Virus record (IMG/VR): IMGVR_UViG_3300023172_000254
Coordinates: 1-20,548 of that record
Strand: one strand, 5' to 3'
DNA from: a virus
Length of the DNA stretch: 20,548 nucleotides
The notes under the pieces were generated by a model. That model had not been told where the DNA came from, ran no database searches, and worked only from the letters and a program-made list of their open reading frames with translations. The position numbers and the translations under genes were made by a program. How positions within the stretch are numbered: the first letter of the stretch is position 1; each line of letters starts with the position of its first letter. This document shows positions 2,172-19,132 of this stretch, one piece after another.

Positions 2172-2343
2172 CGTCAGGCTCCAATCCTATTATGAGCACG
2201 CTCTCATTGGGTGCGAGAGGCATCTGCTCGGTTGTGGTGAGGTAGGGGCGGGTAAGTGGCCACCTAGCGATGAAGAAGCGAAGGGGCGTTTGCCCCAACG
2301 CTGCTTTCTGTTTTGAGTATGGGCGGTGGTAGACTAGGATCAT
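2149..2343 (-). CDS. Small unknown protein between endolysin and spanins
   Basis: I do not recognise this 64-residue product. It begins MILVYHRPYSKQKAA, has a central mixed basic/aromatic region and ends with an acidic tail (EPDDDLIAYY). No convincing membrane helix or known motif is visible. Its ATG overlaps the endolysin stop in an ATGA junction and its end overlaps the i-spanin by 23 bases, so it sits in the coupled lysis block. Only a weak ribosome site precedes it, so coupling with the endolysin is likely. The tight fit between two sure genes argues that it is real. A lysis-related role is only a guess from location. Confidence 0.6.
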   Translation of the reverse strand: MILVYHRPYSKQKAALGQTPLRFFIARWPLTRPYLTTTEQMPLAPNESVLIIGLEPDDDLIAYY

Positions 2344-3095
2344 ACGTCGTCCGTCTTCCTGATGAACACCATGTAGACGCCAAGGCCTACGGCCACAGCG
2401 ACCACCAGTGCCACACCGACACGCCAGTCCACACCCTGTAGGGCAGCGGCTACGCCAGCCCCACCAGAGGCGATGGCTGTAGCTACCTTATCGAAGAACC
2501 CGGGTTTGGCCGTGGTCTTCAGGTCGCCTTCCTCGGCCCTCGAGGTTGTACGCTTGGCGGGTGGAGGCTCGAACGGTACGGCATTCCCCATCCGCAGGGC
2601 TCTTTTCTTGACATCAGCTACACGACGGGACCATCCTCTACCGAAGTATTTCCATGTGCGTAACCGTTTGAGAAAAGCTAACCGCCTCGCACACAGGCTA
2701 GTGATTAGTTCTTCCGGCTTATACTCTTTGATGGCATCGAGTAGGATCTGGCCTACATGGCCGTCTACCTTCTCGCCCATGACCCGCTGTAGGTCCTTGG
2801 CGGCCCGTGTAGGCCCCGAGTTCACAGCATAGTCGAACATGGCGTAGTCCAGACCGTCAGGCATCTCGTCAGCCCTTACAGCATCCCAGTACTGAAACTT
2901 GTAGATATCCTGTAACTCACGGTCCTCGATGGATCGTACAGACCTCCGTGGAGCCCCTCTACGCCTCCGGTAGGCATCGTACACCCGCTGGGTGACGCCC
3001 TTCATTGTAGCTCCCCCAGGATCGCGGGGGTGGTTGGAGTACCCGCCCTCGTGTTTTAAGACAAGGGCGAGTGCTTTGGGGAAATTGTTTTGCAT
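2340..3095 (-). CDS. Endolysin: GH108-type N-acetylmuramidase with C-terminal membrane segment
   Basis: The 251-residue protein opens with the GH108 signature: catalytic Glu16 in HEGGYSNHPRDPGGATMKG, followed by VTQ. Glycosyl hydrolase family 108 enzymes cut the MurNAc-GlcNAc bond of peptidoglycan. The region from about residue 95 to 170 (FDYAVNSGPTRAAKDLQ, VDGHVG) matches the peptidoglycan-binding domain that normally follows. A Lys/Pro/Thr-rich linker (about 175-200) leads to an Ala/Gly-rich stretch and a strong membrane helix at about 226-245 (VGVALVVAVAVGLGVYMVFI), then RKTDDV. The enzyme has no N-terminal signal, so the C-terminal helix is unusual and may anchor it in the membrane. It is first in the lysis block. 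The start ATG has AGGAG five bases upstream. Confidence 0.9.
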   Translation of the reverse strand: MQNNFPKALALVLKHEGGYSNHPRDPGGATMKGVTQRVYDAYRRRRGAPRRSVRSIEDRELQDIYKFQYWDAVRADEMPDGLDYAMFDYAVNSGPTRAAKDLQRVMGEKVDGHVGQILLDAIKEYKPEELITSLCARRLAFLKRLRTWKYFGRGWSRRVADVKKRALRMGNAVPFEPPPAKRTTSRAEEGDLKTTAKPGFFDKVATAIASGGAGVAAALQGVDWRVGVALVVAVAVGLGVYMVFIRKTDDV

Positions 3096-5484: not shown

Positions 5485-8400
5485 TTAATTTAGTTCGTCG
5501 CGGAGAATGGCGCTTGCACCGTAGGAACGCTCTTCTTGGAGCTTCTTGTTTCCACCCGGTATGACACCAGTGCCTTCCTCGAGTAGACCTTCCTTCTTCA
5601 GTGTAGCGGCCCATGCCTGCTCACGAGCTTTGGTAATGAGTTTCCGAACAGCCTCGAGACGTGCAGACTTCACTGGTCCGCCCAGTCCTAACCCGTTCTC
5701 CTTGAGCTTATCCTTCTCGACTACAAGGGCCTTGTGAAGGGCATCCATCAGTCCAGTCTTCCGAAGCTCTTTGGCGAACGTGTCGATGACATGGCGCTTC
5801 TCAGTGCTATCCAACCGGCGGAGGTCTGTGCCTGCCGCCCGTAGGAACTTGTCGGGGACCTGATCGTTGAAGATCACGAACCCTTTGCCTGAGAGCTTAC
5901 CCAAGTCGTACAGGGCCTGACGCACCTCGAGAACCTTGGGGTCCTCAGAGGTGGGCCTCATCGTATTGAGGGGGCCTCGTAAGCCACGTGGGTCCGTCGC
6001 TCGTTGGATAGGGTAGCCCATAGCGTCGTACTTCATGGACATGTCCTCCCGGTTGAGGGAGGCCTCGTTCTTGAAGGCATCGAGAAGCTCAGAGAGGGCA
6101 TACGTCTGTTCGTAGAGCTGGGGATCGTTGTAGTCCCTGATGCTCTTGTAGAGGGCAGGGACGAACTTACCGGCTTGGTTACGGAGGATACGTGAGAGGG
6201 CCTTCTGCTTGGCAGACTGGTCCTTCAGGGCGTTTGCCTTATCCTCACCGAACATAGCGCCTGCAAGGTCAACGATGTCCTTAACACCTGTGAACGCCGG
6301 GTTGTTAACCGCAGCAACACCCAACGCAGCGGCGATGGCGCCAGCAAACGCACCTGCTGTCTGGTAGGCATCAGGGGTATGGTCTGCGATGGGGCCAAGT
6401 AGGGACTGGTTCTTCAGCCCAGTGGCCTGCCGCTCAGCCTCGATCATACGATCCCGCTCCATGCGCTTGATAGAGCCGTGGAGGGCACCAACAAGGGCGA
6501 ACGGGATGGACACGGGGTCCAAGCCTGTCGTGTCGATCACTCGTCCACCACCGATGTCTACATAGTTCGGCTGGAGTCCACCTGCGGCCTGCTTGGCTTG
6601 ACGCTTCTCACGTTCACCAGCGCCTATGAACTCACCTACCATGTCGTTCTCGTACATCTGCCAGATGCCCAGCATGATGCCATACCCAAGGAACATCTTC
6701 CCGCGAGCCTCAGCGGCTACGAGGGGGTCTGCTGATTTGAGCTGGTTACGGAACTGGGATATGCCGGGGATGTTACGAATCACAGGGACGTACTCAAACC
6801 CACGAAGGAAGCCCTGTACCGGAGACCGGAAGAAGGGCACCAGGATACGAGCTTCAGGGACACTGTTGACGGCAATCTCTGCCTTCTTCCAGACGCCATT
6901 GAGGTCGTTCTTGAGGAGGATATACTCAGCCCGCTCGGCAGACTTCTCGTGTATCCACCGTCCTAGCTTATCCTTACTGGCCAGTACGTCTCGCTCGACG
7001 AACTCTTTCAGGGTCAACCCATCTACCGTTGCCTTCGATCCCTTCAGCGTCCGCAGCTCATCTTTCAGACGAGCGACAGTCTTGGGGCGAAGGTTTGGGT
7101 CACGGAGTTTTGCCTGAACCAGTTCAGCCCTCTTGAGGGCCTTCTCTGCGAACTCGAATGCGGAGTACTCAGCTCTGGCGGAGATGTTGTAGATGTTGGT
7201 CATCACCTCGTCAGAAAAGCGCATACCCAAGGTCTGTAGGTCTACAGCCTTGCCGAACACGTTAATGACACGGCCTAGTACACTATCGTCCTTCAGTCCG
7301 TAGTTCCCAGCGTTGATCCCGGAGCCTGCGGTGTCCATGATGGACCGGGTCATCCCAGGGGTGTTCCTCCAAGAGGACGCGGCAGCATCGGACAAGGCAC
7401 TTTTGAAGGTCTTGTACGCACTGTCTGTACCTGCTCGTAGACCAAAGGATCGGGCATCCCGCAGCATCCTGTACATGCGGATGCCTTCAGCTCCACCCTG
7501 AGCAATCTTACCCAACCGGAGTGTGGCGATGTTAGCGAGGGTTAGCTCCTTGGTTACCTGTCCTAAGAAAGTTGAGACGTTCATAGCGGCTCGATGTGCG
7601 AGACCACCAAGCACGTTTCTCTTGAGCGTTCCTAAGCCACTCAGCATGGCGTTAGTAGTGAAGGTGATTACATCCTTCACGATCTGCCGACCGATAGAGC
7701 CCACTTTCTGTAGGCCTGCACTGAACGCGGTTGTGGCCTCCTTCGTCATGGTGGTCTGGATGCGTTCCAGAGCCTTCTCCAGCTCGGTCTTCTTAACGAG
7801 GAGCTTCTCCACCTGACTGGGGCTTACCGCCTCTTCGATCTGCTTGTTAATAGCGGCGAGCTGCCGTAGGGCACGATTGAGGGACTCCTTGTTGATGGTC
7901 CTCTCCACCCGCATCGCTAGGTCTGCTATCTCATCGGGGGTAGCACCCCGCTTCATAGCGTCTTCGATGGGCTGACGAAGGGCCTTACGGACGTTCTCAG
8001 AGGTCTGACGGAGGGCGAGGTTGCGGCCTGAGAACAGGGACGCAGCATCGTTCACCTTGCTGTACTTCTCCAGCAGCTTCGTAGCCATGTCTTGGGCAGC
8101 AACCAGCTCATCGAGCTTGTCTGCATTGGTCACCTTGAGGGCCTTGGCAGCATCGAGTGCTTCCTTGGCAGCGGTCAGGTTCCGAAGTCCTTGCCGGTAG
8201 GTGGCGATGGCGAGCTGCTGTATCTTCGGGACGTAGTCGAGGATAGCAGGGGCGTTGAACACGTCCATGATCTCGTCTACCGATTTGCCTGCCACGTTCA
8301 ACCACCGGTCAAACACGTCGCTAACCGCCTCGTCCATCTGCTTGATGGTGAGGGTCTCGAACTTAGGCATATCGTCGAGGATACGGATTACACTGTTAGG

Positions 8401-9909
8401 CACGAAGCCGTCAGAGGTAGCACCCTTGAGGGCATTATCGTAGGCCACAGCCCCTGGGGGAGTGTCTGTGATGATAGCCTTCAGGGCATCTCTCTGGGGC
8501 ATGCTTGCTGTATCAGCAGCCTTAACCTCTGGAAGGGCTCTAGGAGCCTCTAGGGGGACCTCTGAGCCGGGTTTGGCTACAGGTGGTACCTCTGTGGCCT
8601 TGGGGCCTACAGGGGCCTCTACGGGCTTTACAGGGGCTTCCTGCGCCTTTTTAACTTTAGCACGGAACTCCTCAATGTGTTTGGCAGCTTCCTGAGGGGT
8701 TTTGGACCTGAATAGGCCTCCCAGCGCCTTGAAGGCACCAGCCACGACAATACCAGCAGCAGCACCGTATCCAGCGTTCAGGGCCCTTTTGGCCATCTCG
8801 CTTTCAAAGTCTGCCGCTGTGGGGGCAGGTAGACCAAATCGTTTGAACAGGTCGCCTAAGTTCGGGTCATCAGGGTTGAACGCGAAGGCGTCCACCAATG
8901 CTCCGATACCCAGCTCCTTGGCGAAGCCTCCTGCCTTACCGCCTATGGCAACACGACCGGCTAAGAACTGGCTCACCCCGGTGATCATATCGTTGATCAT
9001 GGGGTTCTGGGTGCCGACATTGGAGCCTGCACCGAAGTCGATCTGTTTGGAGACGTTGCTATCGCCGCCTGCGAGGAGGTCTGCGAGCCACATACCGGAG
9101 CGTACAAGCTCTTGGCCAGCCTTGGCGGCACCTGTGGTAGCAGCGTCGATGGTTTCCTTCACGACACCTGTGCGGCCTCCTATGGTCCTCTGGCCGAGGG
9201 CGAGGACCTCGATGAGTTCCCGCTTGTCCTGAGCCTTGGTATACCTGGAGCGAGCCGGGTCCATGAGGCGCAGGGCTAGGGCAGACGTGCCGCCGTACAC
9301 CCTGTCGAACTCTTTGACGACCTCGGGGTCATCCCGGTAGAGCCAAAGGTTGAACATGTGGCTCTCAGAGGGGAGCGACAGGTATCGCTTGGCTGAACCT
9401 GGGCCGAACTCCTCGTCGAACAGGGAGACCACATCAGGATCGCTCTGGTGCCTACGAAGGTTGTTGACGACTTCGGCAGGCGGTATCTTGTCAACGGAAC
9501 CTATATCGGTAAACGAGCGGTAGCCCGGTGTGAACTCTTTAGGGACCATCCATGAGGTTACTGCACCAAAGGCAGTACGAGAGGCGTCCAAGGGGTTAAC
9601 AATGACCTCTCCGATTTTATTTATGATGCCTACATCGGTAGGCTCAGGTTGCATATCATCGGGGGCCGGGTCGGCATCTAGGGCAGCGATGGTTTTAGCA
9701 GCGGCTGCATCCTCGGCTGCACGGATAGCGGTGTCCTCCGCGAAGGCAGTAGCCACCGGGTTAGGGATAACTACTGGTTCTTCTGGAGACATGTCATCAG
9801 GGGCAGGCCCCTCGTCTACAGAACTGGGAGCAGGTGCCACTGTGTTGACGCCCACGAGGGGTGTCTGTGTTTGGATAGGGGGCATGTTAGCCCCCAGTTC
9901 TTCTATCAT
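5485..9909 (-). CDS. Largest internal virion/ejection protein (T7 gp16-like)
   Basis: At 1474 residues this is the largest protein and holds the gp16 place, after the gp15-like gene and before the tail fibre; T7 gp16 has 1318 residues. The N-terminus is acidic and Pro-rich, with a repeated APDD-M motif at about 36 and 82. A hydrophobic patch with GAAAGIVVAGAFKALGG lies at about 381-397, a Pro-rich linker at about 420-465, and long helical and coiled regions through the middle. The segment RILVPFFRSPVQGFLRGFEY near residues 1020-1045 is typical of large phage ejection proteins. No transglycosylase signature is seen at the N-terminus, unlike T7 gp16. It should enter the cell during infection and help form the periplasmic DNA channel. 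AGGA precedes the ATG. Confidence 0.85.
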   Translation of the reverse strand: MIEELGANMPPIQTQTPLVGVNTVAPAPSSVDEGPAPDDMSPEEPVVIPNPVATAFAEDTAIRAAEDAAAAKTIAALDADPAPDDMQPEPTDVGIINKIGEVIVNPLDASRTAFGAVTSWMVPKEFTPGYRSFTDIGSVDKIPPAEVVNNLRRHQSDPDVVSLFDEEFGPGSAKRYLSLPSESHMFNLWLYRDDPEVVKEFDRVYGGTSALALRLMDPARSRYTKAQDKRELIEVLALGQRTIGGRTGVVKETIDAATTGAAKAGQELVRSGMWLADLLAGGDSNVSKQIDFGAGSNVGTQNPMINDMITGVSQFLAGRVAIGGKAGGFAKELGIGALVDAFAFNPDDPNLGDLFKRFGLPAPTAADFESEMAKRALNAGYGAAAGIVVAGAFKALGGLFRSKTPQEAAKHIEEFRAKVKKAQEAPVKPVEAPVGPKATEVPPVAKPGSEVPLEAPRALPEVKAADTASMPQRDALKAIITDTPPGAVAYDNALKGATSDGFVPNSVIRILDDMPKFETLTIKQMDEAVSDVFDRWLNVAGKSVDEIMDVFNAPAILDYVPKIQQLAIATYRQGLRNLTAAKEALDAAKALKVTNADKLDELVAAQDMATKLLEKYSKVNDAASLFSGRNLALRQTSENVRKALRQPIEDAMKRGATPDEIADLAMRVERTINKESLNRALRQLAAINKQIEEAVSPSQVEKLLVKKTELEKALERIQTTMTKEATTAFSAGLQKVGSIGRQIVKDVITFTTNAMLSGLGTLKRNVLGGLAHRAAMNVSTFLGQVTKELTLANIATLRLGKIAQGGAEGIRMYRMLRDARSFGLRAGTDSAYKTFKSALSDAAASSWRNTPGMTRSIMDTAGSGINAGNYGLKDDSVLGRVINVFGKAVDLQTLGMRFSDEVMTNIYNISARAEYSAFEFAEKALKRAELVQAKLRDPNLRPKTVARLKDELRTLKGSKATVDGLTLKEFVERDVLASKDKLGRWIHEKSAERAEYILLKNDLNGVWKKAEIAVNSVPEARILVPFFRSPVQGFLRGFEYVPVIRNIPGISQFRNQLKSADPLVAAEARGKMFLGYGIMLGIWQMYENDMVGEFIGAGEREKRQAKQAAGGLQPNYVDIGGGRVIDTTGLDPVSIPFALVGALHGSIKRMERDRMIEAERQATGLKNQSLLGPIADHTPDAYQTAGAFAGAIAAALGVAAVNNPAFTGVKDIVDLAGAMFGEDKANALKDQSAKQKALSRILRNQAGKFVPALYKSIRDYNDPQLYEQTYALSELLDAFKNEASLNREDMSMKYDAMGYPIQRATDPRGLRGPLNTMRPTSEDPKVLEVRQALYDLGKLSGKGFVIFNDQVPDKFLRAAGTDLRRLDSTEKRHVIDTFAKELRKTGLMDALHKALVVEKDKLKENGLGLGGPVKSARLEAVRKLITKAREQAWAATLKKEGLLEEGTGVIPGGNKKLQEERSYGASAILRDELN

Positions 9910-9925: not shown

Positions 9926-12751
9926 TCATCGCCCGAATAGCTTCTTCTGCGCTGCCGACCGTTTCTCATCGACGGCGGGTTTGGCAGGGCTAGCTGCTGG
10001 GGCTGGTTTAGATTGGGGTTGTGGTTTGCCAGCCTTGAAGTCCTCATAGGACTGACCAGTGGCAAACTGATCGAGTTCAGCCGCCTTCTTTGGGAAGATC
10101 GACTTGACGTAGGGTACGATGGCTTTGGCCGCAGCCTCTGCCGCAGCAAACCGGTGCATGGTGTTTGATGGATCGAAGTCTTTACCCATCATGGCTTTGT
10201 TGAACTCCTGAACATACGCTGCCCGGATACGGGGCCAGTTCGGGTTCGCCTTCACCGTATTACTGAGGGACAGTGCCCCACCCTTCTGACCATCGATGAT
10301 TTCCTCAACAGTCTTCAGGCCAGCCTTGAACTCAGGGCCGGAGATGGCACCGGCATACTTAGGATCGAGATACTTCTCGACTTCCTTTACCAAGCCGTTT
10401 CGGAGGTCAGCCGGGACCTCACCATCGTTTATCTTGTTACGAAGGTCATGGAGACTATCTGTATCCCCACGCCACGCCGCGTTCAGTATCTTCTGGGTCC
10501 AATCACGCTTGAGTAGCTCCTTATTGGCCGTGGACATTCCGGTAGCATCCGTGAAGGACTTCCGCATCTTGATGGCGTATGCAGCAGCATCAAACCCATC
10601 AGGGGCGTTCGCTTGGATACGCTTCAAGTCATCCATGCTGATCTTGAACTCCTTACCGGCGTTCTGGGGATCAGAGTAGAAGCTTGTTATACGGGTGCGA
10701 TATTCACTTATAGCAGCCGTGTGGGCATCCTTACGAGCGCTCTCGCGGGCTTTACGGGCAGCAGTGATACCGGAGACCCGAATCTTCTCAATGTCCCGCA
10801 TAGACTTCTGTATAGCGGCATACTCACTGTCTGTGAGAAAGGCCTGCTTTTTACCATCCTTGTCTACATAGAACTTCGGTATCTGCTTCAGGAGGCTCGG
10901 ATCCTGTGTGGCCAGGGCACGGTTAGTGACGACCTCGATGAACTTCGCCTTACGCTCCTTCCGGCTGATGAGGTCACCAGACCGCAGCTCTTCGTTCGAA
11001 TCCCATTTCTGGAAGTTCTGGAATAGCTGGGAGGCTGGGAGGGTACTCTTCTGAACACCGATCTCAGGGTTAGGGGAGTTCTCGTCCAAGAAGTCACCGA
11101 CCATAGCGCCGGTAGCATTCGGGGTGCTTTCGGAGTTACCGCTACGAATAGCAGCGGCCTCAGCCATCCTGCGCCGGGACAGGCCCGGGAGCTTGGAGGG
11201 CAGCGCCTCAATGGCTGCGGCAATCTTATTGTTGTCGCCGGTCTTGAGGGCCTCCCGTACCGACTTAGGTACGTTGCCATAGTTGTAGGTGAGCGAGATT
11301 AGTGCGGCCCTCTGGCCTTCACTGGCACCCTTCCACCAACCACCAGCAGCTTTCTGCGCTCTCGGTGCGAACTCGGTCTTGATACGTCGTTCCAGATCAC
11401 GCTCTGCATCGGCCTTCGAGACGGTCATACCGGGTGTTACCGGGACGACGGTTCCGTCTGCCTTGGTGATGGTATCGCTACCAAAGCCAATGCGGTGCTT
11501 ATTGTCAGCGCCTTTATCGAGGTATGAGGTTGCCCTGAACCCCTCGAACTGGCGGATCATGGAGGAGGCGCTCACGGGGGAGCCTGAGGTTGTAGCCCCA
11601 CCACCGGCCTTGCGGAGGCGCATACCTTCAGCGTATGCAGCCTTCACCCATGCCGGGGCATTCTTAGAACTACCACCTGCGCCCCACGTCAGGCTACTGC
11701 CTCCGCCAACGTGAATACGGCCATCAGTCATATAACCCGGCCCAGCTCCGATGCCGTTGGCACCTGCTGCGACGATGTGGGTAATGAATGAGCTGATCTT
11801 GTTACGATCCGCTGGGTTGGAGAAGGACAAGCGCCGACCTGCACCGTCCGTAAGGTCGATGTCAGCGGCGTTACCGTGGTCATGCCGATTGCTTCCAGTC
11901 CGACGCGCACCAGGGCCCTTCGCATCCTGTCCACCTGAGTGTACAACTGCGTTCAGCCCGGTCATCTTACCGGCCTTGGCGATCTGGTTCTTCAGGCTGT
12001 CAGTAATCTCTTTGTTGCGTATCTTAGATTTGAAACTGTCAGCGTAGGTAACGTTACCACCGCCACCCGTAGACGACGTGTTAGCCTTAGAGCCAGCCTC
12101 GTCACCCTTCACGCCCTTGCCAAACAAGGACTCACTTAGGGTTTCGGAGCTGCGTTCAGCTATGAGCTTCTTCATCTTGGCGACACGAGTACGAGCCTCG
12201 TTAGCATCAGCGCCTGCAAAGTACTTCTTAGCGGCTGCAATGTATGCCGGACCGTAGAACTGGTTTGCGCCCACGCGGGCTGCCGCTTTCGCGGCCCAGT
12301 TCTGAAAGAACGCCTGCGCTGCTTCAGGTGTGTTGAAGGCCTCGGGGTTCTTGGCTATCTCAGCCTCGTACGCCTTGCGGGCCTCTGCGGCACCATGAGT
12401 AGCACCTATGCTCTCAGCCACCGCAGCACGCAGACGTGGCCTCATGTCAGGACGTAGCGTTGTTAGCTGCTCTTGAAGGGGCTTACCGCCTGGGCCGACC
12501 TTGATGTCATTCATCACAGAGGCCGCGATGACGTCCTTCTGCTTCAACTCTCGCTCTGCCTGTAGGGCCTCGGTCTGACCGACCTGTTTGGATAGGCCTG
12601 CCAAGGCGCGAGCGAGTTGGTCGGCATTGGCTACACTGTCGCGGTATTGGCTCTGGATGGCACGAGGATCAACCGCATATGTCTCACGGGGGGTAATCCT
12701 CGAATTACCCAAGTCTACAGTTTCTTGATCGGGGAGGGTGATCCCTGCCAT
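9926..12751 (-). CDS. Internal virion/ejection protein with M15-like peptidase and GH24 lysozyme domains (gp15 position)
   Basis: This 941-residue protein lies between the gp14-like and gp16-like genes. A helical N-terminus (1-220) and Ser/Gly linker lead to a metallopeptidase-like region of the M15/LAS type: HDHGNAAD places His290 and Asp297 in the HxxGxAxD motif, and GRIHVGGG provides a later His347. A second linker is followed by a GH24 lysozyme domain at about 397-540, with Glu403 in QFEGFRATSYLD, Asp412, HRIGFGSDT, SLTYNYGN and GLSRRRMAEAAAI. The C-terminal half is helical and resembles ejection proteins. The protein should cut peptidoglycan locally when DNA enters: lysozyme on glycan, M15-like on peptide. 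The start has AGGAG ahead of the ATG. Domain calls come from motifs only. Confidence 0.87.
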   Translation of the reverse strand: MAGITLPDQETVDLGNSRITPRETYAVDPRAIQSQYRDSVANADQLARALAGLSKQVGQTEALQAERELKQKDVIAASVMNDIKVGPGGKPLQEQLTTLRPDMRPRLRAAVAESIGATHGAAEARKAYEAEIAKNPEAFNTPEAAQAFFQNWAAKAAARVGANQFYGPAYIAAAKKYFAGADANEARTRVAKMKKLIAERSSETLSESLFGKGVKGDEAGSKANTSSTGGGGNVTYADSFKSKIRNKEITDSLKNQIAKAGKMTGLNAVVHSGGQDAKGPGARRTGSNRHDHGNAADIDLTDGAGRRLSFSNPADRNKISSFITHIVAAGANGIGAGPGYMTDGRIHVGGGSSLTWGAGGSSKNAPAWVKAAYAEGMRLRKAGGGATTSGSPVSASSMIRQFEGFRATSYLDKGADNKHRIGFGSDTITKADGTVVPVTPGMTVSKADAERDLERRIKTEFAPRAQKAAGGWWKGASEGQRAALISLTYNYGNVPKSVREALKTGDNNKIAAAIEALPSKLPGLSRRRMAEAAAIRSGNSESTPNATGAMVGDFLDENSPNPEIGVQKSTLPASQLFQNFQKWDSNEELRSGDLISRKERKAKFIEVVTNRALATQDPSLLKQIPKFYVDKDGKKQAFLTDSEYAAIQKSMRDIEKIRVSGITAARKARESARKDAHTAAISEYRTRITSFYSDPQNAGKEFKISMDDLKRIQANAPDGFDAAAYAIKMRKSFTDATGMSTANKELLKRDWTQKILNAAWRGDTDSLHDLRNKINDGEVPADLRNGLVKEVEKYLDPKYAGAISGPEFKAGLKTVEEIIDGQKGGALSLSNTVKANPNWPRIRAAYVQEFNKAMMGKDFDPSNTMHRFAAAEAAAKAIVPYVKSIFPKKAAELDQFATGQSYEDFKAGKPQPQSKPAPAASPAKPAVDEKRSAAQKKLFGR

Positions 12752-12765
12752 TGTGATCTCCTAGA

Positions 12766-13311
12766 TTATTTGAATGTCGGGAAGCTAAACGAGGAAGCCC
12801 AACCGGGGTTGGACGTGTTCATACCGCCTACTGCGGCACCCGCTATGTTAATTGCTAGACCGAGAGGGTTGGGGCCTTCCTTGAGGGGCATGGAGTTGAT
12901 ACGCTGCTGGGCCTCGGCCTCATACGTCTTCACTCGGCCACGGTAGGCCTCTGTCATATCTTCTCGTTTGGTCTGTACACGAGCCTCGTTCTCCGCAGCC
13001 TTCTGCTTGGAGGCAGCGATAAGCTGGTCGAGGGTCAGGGAGCCTGCTGCAATACCAGCAGAGCCTGACGAGGCTGTGCCGGTGGCTACTGCGGCCCTGC
13101 CCTTCAGGGCGGCTTCGTAGCCCTTCTGTTGGGCAGACCTAGAGTTATAAATGAGCTTACGCTGCTCGTCTGTGTATTTGTTGGATGCGGCTATACCGGC
13201 ATCCCGGTGTGCAGCCGCAGCCTGCGAATTGTAGGCATCGGTTGCCTGCTGTTGGCCTGCGAACTTGGCTACAGATGAGGCAGCACCTAGTGCCGCCATG
13301 ATTGTACACAT
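12766..13311 (-). CDS. Internal virion protein (T7 gp14-like)
   Basis: The 181-residue product has the size and style of T7 gp14 (196 residues), an inner core protein that leaves the particle first and forms the pore in the outer membrane. It opens with MCTIMAALGAASS, is Ala/Gln-rich and helical through about residue 135, then has a hydrophobic Gly/Ala stretch (LGLAINIAGAAVGG, about 150-164) and a Ser/Phe-rich end. Position between the gp13-like and the larger ejection protein genes supports the call. The ATG at 13311 has AAAGGAG seven bases upstream, overlapping the previous gene's stop. Confidence 0.85.
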   Translation of the reverse strand: MCTIMAALGAASSVAKFAGQQQATDAYNSQAAAAHRDAGIAASNKYTDEQRKLIYNSRSAQQKGYEAALKGRAAVATGTASSGSAGIAAGSLTLDQLIAASKQKAAENEARVQTKREDMTEAYRGRVKTYEAEAQQRINSMPLKEGPNPLGLAINIAGAAVGGMNTSNPGWASSFSFPTFK

Positions 13312-17223: not shown

Positions 17224-17870
17224 CATGAGTGTTCGCCACAGGTCGTTAAGCTGTGACCGCCTTTCGGCTGCTGTAGGTCGCCCTACAGATCAGACTATAT
17301 CTTTCTCCGAGATAGAATATATTGAGCCGCTTTGATTATTTTTTCAGGATCGTCGTGGAAGTGTCCAAGCCCTGAATTACAGGTTGGACAGAGCAGTCCA
17401 CGAACTTCGCCAGTTGTGTGACAGTGATCTATGACAAGCGGATTCGTTGTGTATTGTTTGTGCACAACCTCGGATGCGTGTATACCGCATATCTCGCAGC
17501 GGTTGCCCGCTCGGGCGACGAGGTTGTCAATATCTTCTACAGTAATATTATACCGATGAGCTGCCTCTTTCTTGTTCCGACAGTCTTTACATTCGGTTCG
17601 ATGTTTTCCATTATCCTTACGGAAGTGGAAGGCATCAAGAGGCTTCGGCTCATCGCATATGCGACAAGTCTGCATGAGAGCCTCCTCGGGGTGGAGAGGC
17701 TCAATACATTCTTCGGAGAGTTCCCATTTCAGACCACTTGGTCTTACTCCCTTGCGGGATAGTCGTTACACCTTCCTCTTGCGAGGCTTGGCTCGGTATT
17801 GTCTCATAGAGAGGTCCACCGAATTAGAGAACTTTGCTTTGCGGATTACTCCGCAGAGGGGCCATAATTA
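17224..17870 (-). ncRNA. Group I self-splicing intron in the major capsid gene, with HNH ORF
   Basis: The 647-base intron starts after exon base T (17871) and ends at G (17224). The last exon bases GGGT can pair with GCCC-type internal guide sequence just inside, giving P1 with a U-G at the splice site. Next come a P2-like hairpin (17840-17855, GTAA loop), a Q-like stretch AATACCGAGCCAAGCC (17785-17800), a CCTC/GAGG hairpin (17775-17786), the R-like AACGACTATCCC (17756-17767) and a CCC/GGG hairpin (17749-17758). The S-like AAGATATAGTC lies at 17293-17303. GACTAT (17759-17764) and ATAGTC (17293-17298) form a six-pair P7. P9-type hairpins follow at 17271-17288 (seven pairs, GCGA loop), 17259-17268 and 17237-17255. 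The layout is phage group IA-like. The endonuclease gene sits before the P7 3' strand. The intron core, splice sites and exon match agree with each other; only splicing itself is untested. Confidence 0.88.
17295..17675 (-). CDS. Intron-encoded HNH endonuclease, endonuclease VII-type
   Basis: The 126-residue protein is a His-Me (beta-beta-alpha metal) nuclease. The N-terminus has a zinc-finger-like pair C4xxC7 and C29xxC32 within CRICDEPKPLDAFHF and CKDCRNKK. The endonuclease VII core has zinc ligands C60xxC63 and C96xxC99, with IDHCHTTGEVRGLLCPTCNSG giving catalytic Asp83, His84 and Asn100 by comparison with T4 endonuclease VII (Asp40, His41, Asn62). As an intron ORF it is the probable homing enzyme that cuts intronless capsid genes. 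A GAGGAGG lies six bases before the ATG. Its last codons and TAG stop overlap the P7 3' strand of the intron, so it is folded into the ribozyme. Confidence 0.88.
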   Translation of the reverse strand: MQTCRICDEPKPLDAFHFRKDNGKHRTECKDCRNKKEAAHRYNITVEDIDNLVARAGNRCEICGIHASEVVHKQYTTNPLVIDHCHTTGEVRGLLCPTCNSGLGHFHDDPEKIIKAAQYILSRRKI

Positions 17871-18901: not shown

Positions 18902-19132
18902 CTACTTGTGTTTGGGCTGCTTACGTCTGTTAGCAGACCGGGTTTTAATGGAGAGGTTACTCATCCGGTTATCGGTGGGGTTAAGGTTCTTGTGATCCAC
19001 CTCTTTACCCTTCAGAGCTTTCTCTCCATGTTTCTTTATCATCAAACGCCGCGCTCGTTGCCGCATTATGTTGGCGCGACGGCGCTCTGGCGTCCGCGAT
19101 GCTTTATACTCTTTATCGTAATCACGGGCCAT
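18902..19132 (-). CDS. Free-standing HNH endonuclease between scaffold and capsid genes
   Basis: The 76-residue, strongly basic product begins MARDYDKEYKASRTPERRRA. It carries an HNH-type core: Val45-Asp46-His47 in GKEVDHKNLNPTDNR, Asn55 and a later N59-L60 in MSNLSIKTRSANRR. Proteins of this short type occur as mobile genes beside the capsid or in other late genes of T7-like phages, often as free-standing homing endonucleases. The gene begins 12 bases after the scaffold stop, with AGGA nine bases before the ATG. It is not inside a recognisable intron. It differs in sequence and family from the endonuclease in the capsid intron, so the two arrived separately. Confidence 0.85.
   Translation of the reverse strand: MARDYDKEYKASRTPERRRANIMRQRARRLMIKKHGEKALKGKEVDHKNLNPTDNRMSNLSIKTRSANRRKQPKHK

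Follow-up and report, generated by a model that had tools for sequence, protein, structure and literature searches.

A gp15-position protein of a T7-like phage that combines a GH24 lysozyme domain with a putative M15-like metallopeptidase domain

The locus and its genes

The window, i.e., the whole stretch of 20,548 nucleotides analysed here, comes from an IMG/VR virus record. On its minus strand, positions 12751 to 9926 form a single open frame of 941 codons, and the plus-strand reading of 9926–12751 is closed by stops. The minus-strand genes begin with the end of the portal, the scaffold, the capsid (PF21703), tube A (PF17212) and tube B/nozzle (PF25675). They continue with a gp13-like gene (phrog_308), a gp14-like gene (PF24072), the 941-aa gene and a 1474-aa gp16-like gene, and end with a T7-type fibre (PF03906), a GH108 endolysin, spanin-like genes and the terminase. 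Two small minus-strand ORFs with the look of HNH endonucleases are interspersed, one between tube A and capsid (17295–17675) and one between capsid and scaffold (18902–19132).

Both neighbours of the 941-aa gene resemble T7-type internal virion proteins. The gp14-like protein (12766–13311, minus strand) matches PF24072, T7_gp14, at E=2.4e-15. The gp16-like protein (5485–9909, minus strand) has relatives, found by tblastn and phmmer, that are annotated as internal virion proteins of Autographiviridae pelagiphages and roseophages. The sequence-only reading had described this protein as free of the transglycosylase known from T7 gp16, and our Pfam scan agrees, as no SLT/transglycosylase domain was found in it or elsewhere in the window. 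The endolysin is a separate gene (2340–3095, minus strand; PF05838 at E=9e-29, with PG_binding_3), which suggests that lysis is served elsewhere than by the 941-aa protein. Spanin-like genes adjoin it. At 1808–2171 on the minus strand, overlapping frames with weak Rz-like matches (phrog_1275, phrog_89) are probably an embedded spanin pair. From the spanin-like genes together with the T7-type ejection genes we infer a diderm host for this phage.

The 941-aa protein (9926–12751, minus strand) can be divided into four parts, all on the minus strand: an N-terminal helical region (aa 1–229, 12065–12751), an M15-like domain (aa 233–382, 11606–12055), a GH24 lysozyme domain (aa 401–531, 11159–11551) and a C-terminal helical region (aa 548–941, 9929–11110). 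Helices are predicted with low confidence in the N-terminal region and mostly with a pLDDT of 70–94 in the C-terminal one. No family match was found for aa 1–229, whose sequence matches are close relatives only, and aa 548–941 matched only the proteins of two other contigs, L001 and L002, with a further search for relatives returning the same phages. A MakB match, the only one in a whole-protein phmmer search of the PDB, was rejected as chance.

The full two-domain architecture occurs in three contigs only, the window, L001 and L002. The L002 protein is 87% identical over its full length and lies on a contig with a different metagenome number. Compared with it, the M15-like and GH24 domains of the window are under purifying selection, with dN/dS values of 0.24 and 0.26. 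The L001 contig is almost identical to the window, and the linker at about aa 385–392 reads GGGATTSGS against GGRATTPGS, so the linker is variable within the population.

A GH24 domain and a divergent M15-like domain

The lysozyme domain is recognized by several methods. Pfam PF00959 (Phage_lysozyme) matches aa 401–531 at E=3e-11, with 44.2 bits versus a curated cut-off of 22.3. A profile of ten relatives matched GH24 lysozymes in the PDB with E down to 2.7e-7, and Foldseek placed GH24 endolysins first for the full-length model (prob 1.00). The predicted catalytic acid is E403 (11543–11545, minus strand), which corresponds to E11 of T4 lysozyme (T4L), is invariant in the 10 relatives and aligns with the PDB GH24 enzymes. 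The alignment of relatives and PDB enzymes likewise points to D412 (11516–11518, minus strand; T4L D20) as the second catalytic residue. At the position of T4L Thr26, where Thr (or Ser) is the GH24 criterion, the window has R420 (11492–11494, minus strand). This position is Arg in 10 out of 10 members of the virion subgroup to which the window belongs, Thr in the PDB GH24 matches and Ser in gp35 of phage K1E, and the subgroup still scores as PF00959. By its sequence, we regard the domain as part of a virion subgroup with a consistent Thr26-to-Arg change, a variant inside PF00959 as drawn by Pfam.

Most GH24 relatives are located in tape-measure proteins of Ruegeria, Caulobacter, Rhizobium, Synechococcus and Burkholderia phages. 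Those of Ruegeria, Synechococcus, Caulobacter and Rhizobium phages are among the nearest lysozyme relatives, with 39–57% identity and the same E/D/R site. Unlike the window, however, they belong to long-tailed phages, and the match is restricted to the GH24 part. The tape-measure domains L095–L101 fall in the Arg-for-Thr26 subgroup, Arg being invariant in its ten sequences.

A gp15-slot lysozyme has been described before. The precedent is gp35 of the SP6-like Escherichia phages K1E and K1-5, for which lysozyme activity was reported (PMC8954989). Like the window protein, gp35 occupies the gp15 slot as an internal virion protein, contains a PF00959 domain (at 776–910 of 982 aa, E=4e-10 in our Pfam scan) and has a gp16-like partner without SLT. 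It differs in its C-terminal GH24 domain, the Ser at the Thr26 position and the absence of an M15-like domain. The N-terminal lytic transglycosylase of T7 gp16 is also a glycan cutter carried in the virion and ejected with the DNA (PMC8954989), but it has an SLT fold, stands alone and is part of a different protein.

The M15-like domain is not catalogued. Neither aa 233–382 nor its counterparts in 21 relatives had a credible match in Pfam, NCBIfam or PHROG. Peptidase_M15_3 (PF08291) did not match aa 233–382 even at E<=10, and none of the 21 members matched any of the Pfam M15 families. The domain belongs to a coherent family of more than 60 distinct sequences, with homologs at 50 IMG/VR loci, at 23 loci in bacterial genomes and in cultured Rhizobium and Agrobacterium phages. 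The bacterial loci are mostly from Alphaproteobacteria, and three are from Patescibacteria. These three copies (L063, L065 and L078, from Kaiserbacteria, UBA6201 and Gracilibacteria), two of them in ORFs of 1637–1881 aa, may belong to prophages or to cell-surface proteins. Another copy, L067, is filed as Enemella evansiae (Actinomycetota) and placed among the alphaproteobacterial copies in the tree; its record may be mislabelled or contaminated.

Over 55 aligned domains, fourteen residues are invariant: R245, S272, G273, G274, Q275, G286, R289, H290, D291, G293, A295, A296, D297 and H347. They include the motif HxxGxAxD (aa 290–297, 11861–11884, minus strand), whose H290 and D297, aligned with the H and D of M15_3, are the first two predicted zinc ligands. 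The third is H347 (11711–11713, minus strand), in an HVG context where M15_3 has HxD. The residues SGGQ (aa 272–275, 11927–11938, minus strand) occupy the place of SGYR in M15. HxxGxAxD occurs once in the protein and is present in 0.85% of composition-preserving shuffles; conservation across the 55 homologous domains is a stronger test than these shuffles.

By hhalign, we compared the profile of the family with one built from 28 Peptidase_M15_3 domains, which 12 of the bacterial genomes mentioned above also encode. This gave P=6.5e-6, prob 85 and a score of 40.7 over 96 collinear columns, versus scores of 8.8–25.5 for 20 column shuffles, 13.2 for the reversed profile and 11.4 for a GH24 profile. 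In the alignment, H290, D297 and H347 fall on the established zinc ligands of M15_3. AlphaFold2 modelled the domain with pLDDT 88.8 and pTM 0.87. In Foldseek searches of the PDB with this model, MepA, LysECD7 and ChiX were the top three matches and the M15A DD-peptidase 1lbu was the fifth, at weak E values of 0.02–0.12 and a TM of ~0.4–0.47. A search of BFVD yielded, at E values of 1e-5 to 7e-4, viral proteins that bear the names Peptidase M15A and Murein endopeptidase K. In profile searches of the PDB, M15C enzymes ranked first or close to it, but at E values of 0.015–0.036 and, in one run, alongside xylanases at similar E values; we therefore took the controlled profile-profile comparison, and not these searches, as proof.

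Together, the profile-profile comparison and the AlphaFold model support the LAS/M15-like assignment well, both as fold and as origin, and aa 233–382 likely represent a divergent LAS/M15 branch. With Peptidase_M15_3/YcbK-MepK (M15A-like; we take YcbK and MepK to be the same protein) the domain shares the zinc set H-x6-D ... H, the collinear motifs and the fold neighbourhood. It differs in the changes from SGYR to SGGQ and from HxD to HxG, in a longer loop with GAGxGYM and in the lack of a Pfam match.

The sequence-only reading had proposed an M15-like peptidase and a GH24 lysozyme in tandem within one gp15-slot protein. Two distinct folds are now supported by Pfam, hhalign, AlphaFold2 and Foldseek, and structure modelling, the check that it had suggested, recovered both the LAS/M15-like and the lysozyme fold. 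Its residue numbering was also right (R289-H290-D-H-G-N-A-A-D297, H347, E403, D412, and GLSRRRM from 523). The changes of SGYR to SGGQ and HxD to HxG in the M15-like site, and of Thr26 to Arg in the lysozyme, were absent from it.

Probable catalysis by the M15-like domain

LAS enzymes combine a zinc motif, H-x(3-6)-D ... H, with a catalytic residue, either a His (HxH) or a Glu (PMC4087270). The zinc motif is present, with H290, D297 and H347 invariant, and we consider the site well supported and the domain a putative zinc binder. The motifs HxH, ExxH and HxD are all missing from the window domain, which reads DGRIHVG, and no acid or His is conserved at −2 or −3 across the family. HxG is found in 56 of the 62 scored homologs, and HxD in the other six. 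Among the HxD members, L051, L055, L057 and L058 form the nearest branches to M15_3 and L049 is a long branch further in. As the tree has long branches, it was used for coarse conclusions only.

The main rival to the peptidase reading is that the M15-like domain is a zinc-binding module with little or no catalysis, which binds stem peptides and anchors the protein at the wall, and that the GH24 domain cuts alone. The absence of the usual HxH/ExxH, and of the M15_3 HxD in 56 of 62 scored members, as well as SGGQ in place of SGYR, would fit such a role. So would the frequent position of family members next to another hydrolase or within a structural protein, and Sonic hedgehog is an example of a LAS fold turned to other use (PMC4102407). 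On the other hand, a deep tree shows no variation at the three ligands or around them, a stricter conservation than a binding module requires, and some copies are single-domain proteins of ~190–300 aa. Furthermore, the missing motifs are insufficient alone to exclude activity, since YcbK, an M15_3 protein, likewise has neither HxH nor ExxH (PMC3927764), yet MepK of E. coli is described as an active LD-specific endopeptidase (PMC12729407). Even the E204A variant of LdcB retains residual activity (PMC4087270). We therefore regard a binding-only role as unlikely, though a serious alternative. A catalytically active M15-like domain is the probable case from these comparisons, with the stem peptide or its cross-link as the predicted target.

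Placement and pairing of the two domains

The 941-aa product is probably a gp15-like ejection protein. The order gp14 – gp15 – gp16 is present, with the PF24072 gp14-like gene upstream and the gp16-like gene downstream. It equals that of the Autographiviridae pelagiphages and roseophages, in which the same slot holds a protein of 538–707 aa; the additional length of the window protein roughly equals that of both wall-acting domains together. This assignment, and with it the presumed location in the virion, is based on gene position. In the full-length model (overall pTM 0.34) the C-terminal part is helical, and the 50 Foldseek matches listed include no gp15 structure. Alternatively, the protein could be a lysis or tail enzyme whose location between the gp14-like and gp16-like genes is coincidental. 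Attempts to link its N- and C-terminal flanks to the gp15 proteins of pelagiphages and roseophages found no sequence similarity, and the full-length model is of low confidence at the N-terminus. Yet gp15-like proteins are mostly recognized by size and synteny only (PMC8954989), and the window has its own endolysin and spanin-like genes, so that we consider a lysis or tail enzyme in this slot quite improbable. A functionless chance fusion or a contig artefact, for which one could cite that only three contigs have the full architecture, is very unlikely, as the L002 protein from another metagenome number is 87% identical over its full length with a dN/dS of ~0.25 per domain.

The sequence-only reading further held that the wall-cutting activity had moved from gp16 to gp15. 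Such an event is unsupported: neither the gp15-slot nor the gp16-like proteins of the nearest relatives have a credible Pfam hydrolase, and the gain of a module is thus an equally good reading.

The pairing itself is not restricted to this protein. In separate parts of the tree, members of the M15-like family are joined to glycan-cutting domains of five families: GH24 (window, L001, L002), SLT_3 (L017, L036), SLT (L038), Phage_lysozyme2 (in tail proteins of RHph_TM21B and RHEph12, two cultured Rhizobium phages whose M15-like domain has the HxD form) and Hydrolase_2 (L035, and a weak match in RHph_N3_13). The M15-like domain also occurs within tape-measure proteins (TMP_2; L025, L029, L031). 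In another T7-like lineage (L048–L050), the gp15 slot holds the M15-like domain alone, in its HxD form; in the L049 ORF at 5581–8940 it is the sole recognizable wall-acting domain. On a podovirus-like contig (L061), GH24 is the one domain of the two found in this slot. The window protein combines these two single-domain types. As the nearest relatives of each half are located in other virion proteins or large phage ORFs, both halves seem to originate from virion modules that phages have in common, and not from endolysins. We also considered whether the M15-like domain serves other phages as an ordinary endolysin. It does occur in small copies, but their long neighbouring ORFs in L064, L066, L026 and L015, read by eye, look structural and not lytic.

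Overall, we favor, with reasonable though not full confidence, a T7-gp15-position ejection protein of a T7-like phage with a diderm host, which acts as a two-domain virion lysin with GH24 and M15-like enzymes. The two domains would be held between the N- and C-terminal helical parts. During infection, the protein would exit the capsid and arrive in the periplasm. There, the GH24 domain would cleave the glycan strand (MurNAc-GlcNAc), and the M15-like domain, with zinc on H290, D297 and H347, would most likely cleave the stem peptide or a cross-link. Both kinds of bond would be opened around the DNA channel.

What makes this protein of interest is the pairing. Virion lysins with two catalytic domains, as in phi29 gp13 and staphylococcal phages, are those of Gram-positive hosts (PMC9863714, PMC5380687). 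Phi29 gp13 likewise unites a lysozyme-like and a LAS endopeptidase domain in one virion protein (PMC9863714, PMC9662197), but it is a tail knob protein, its peptidase is M23 and not M15-like, and its lysozyme precedes the peptidase. In reviews, the virion lysins of Gram-negative phages are described as enzymes with one catalytic domain (PMC9863714), and endopeptidases as almost confined to Gram-positive phages (PMC6116005). As of 2017, endopeptidase activity had been shown for one Gram-negative virion lysin only, P5 of phi6 (PMC5380687). Against this single-domain, almost peptidase-free picture, drawn from a literature compared mostly outside subscription papers, stands a T7-like phage with glycan- and peptide-type enzyme folds in one ejection protein. 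Cultured Rhizobium phages, whose Gram-negative hosts are known, pair such domains likewise in tail proteins. If the two-enzyme reading is true, these proteins would be a systematic exception to the one-domain, no-peptidase rule for Gram-negative virion lysins.

The unnamed M15 branch is a more general result than the single tandem protein. It may be a widespread, uncatalogued branch, altered at the active site (SGGQ, HxG), that supplies the peptide cleavage in two-enzyme virion lysins and has repeatedly been joined to different glycan-cutting enzymes, in phages that infect Alphaproteobacteria and other diderms; we hold this tentatively, at a little short of an even chance. Activity of the M15-like half would assign a function to a large unnamed peptidase family and make a metallopeptidase without the usual catalytic residue testable, and it would mean that the opening of the cell wall by Gram-negative phages is less simple than has been held.
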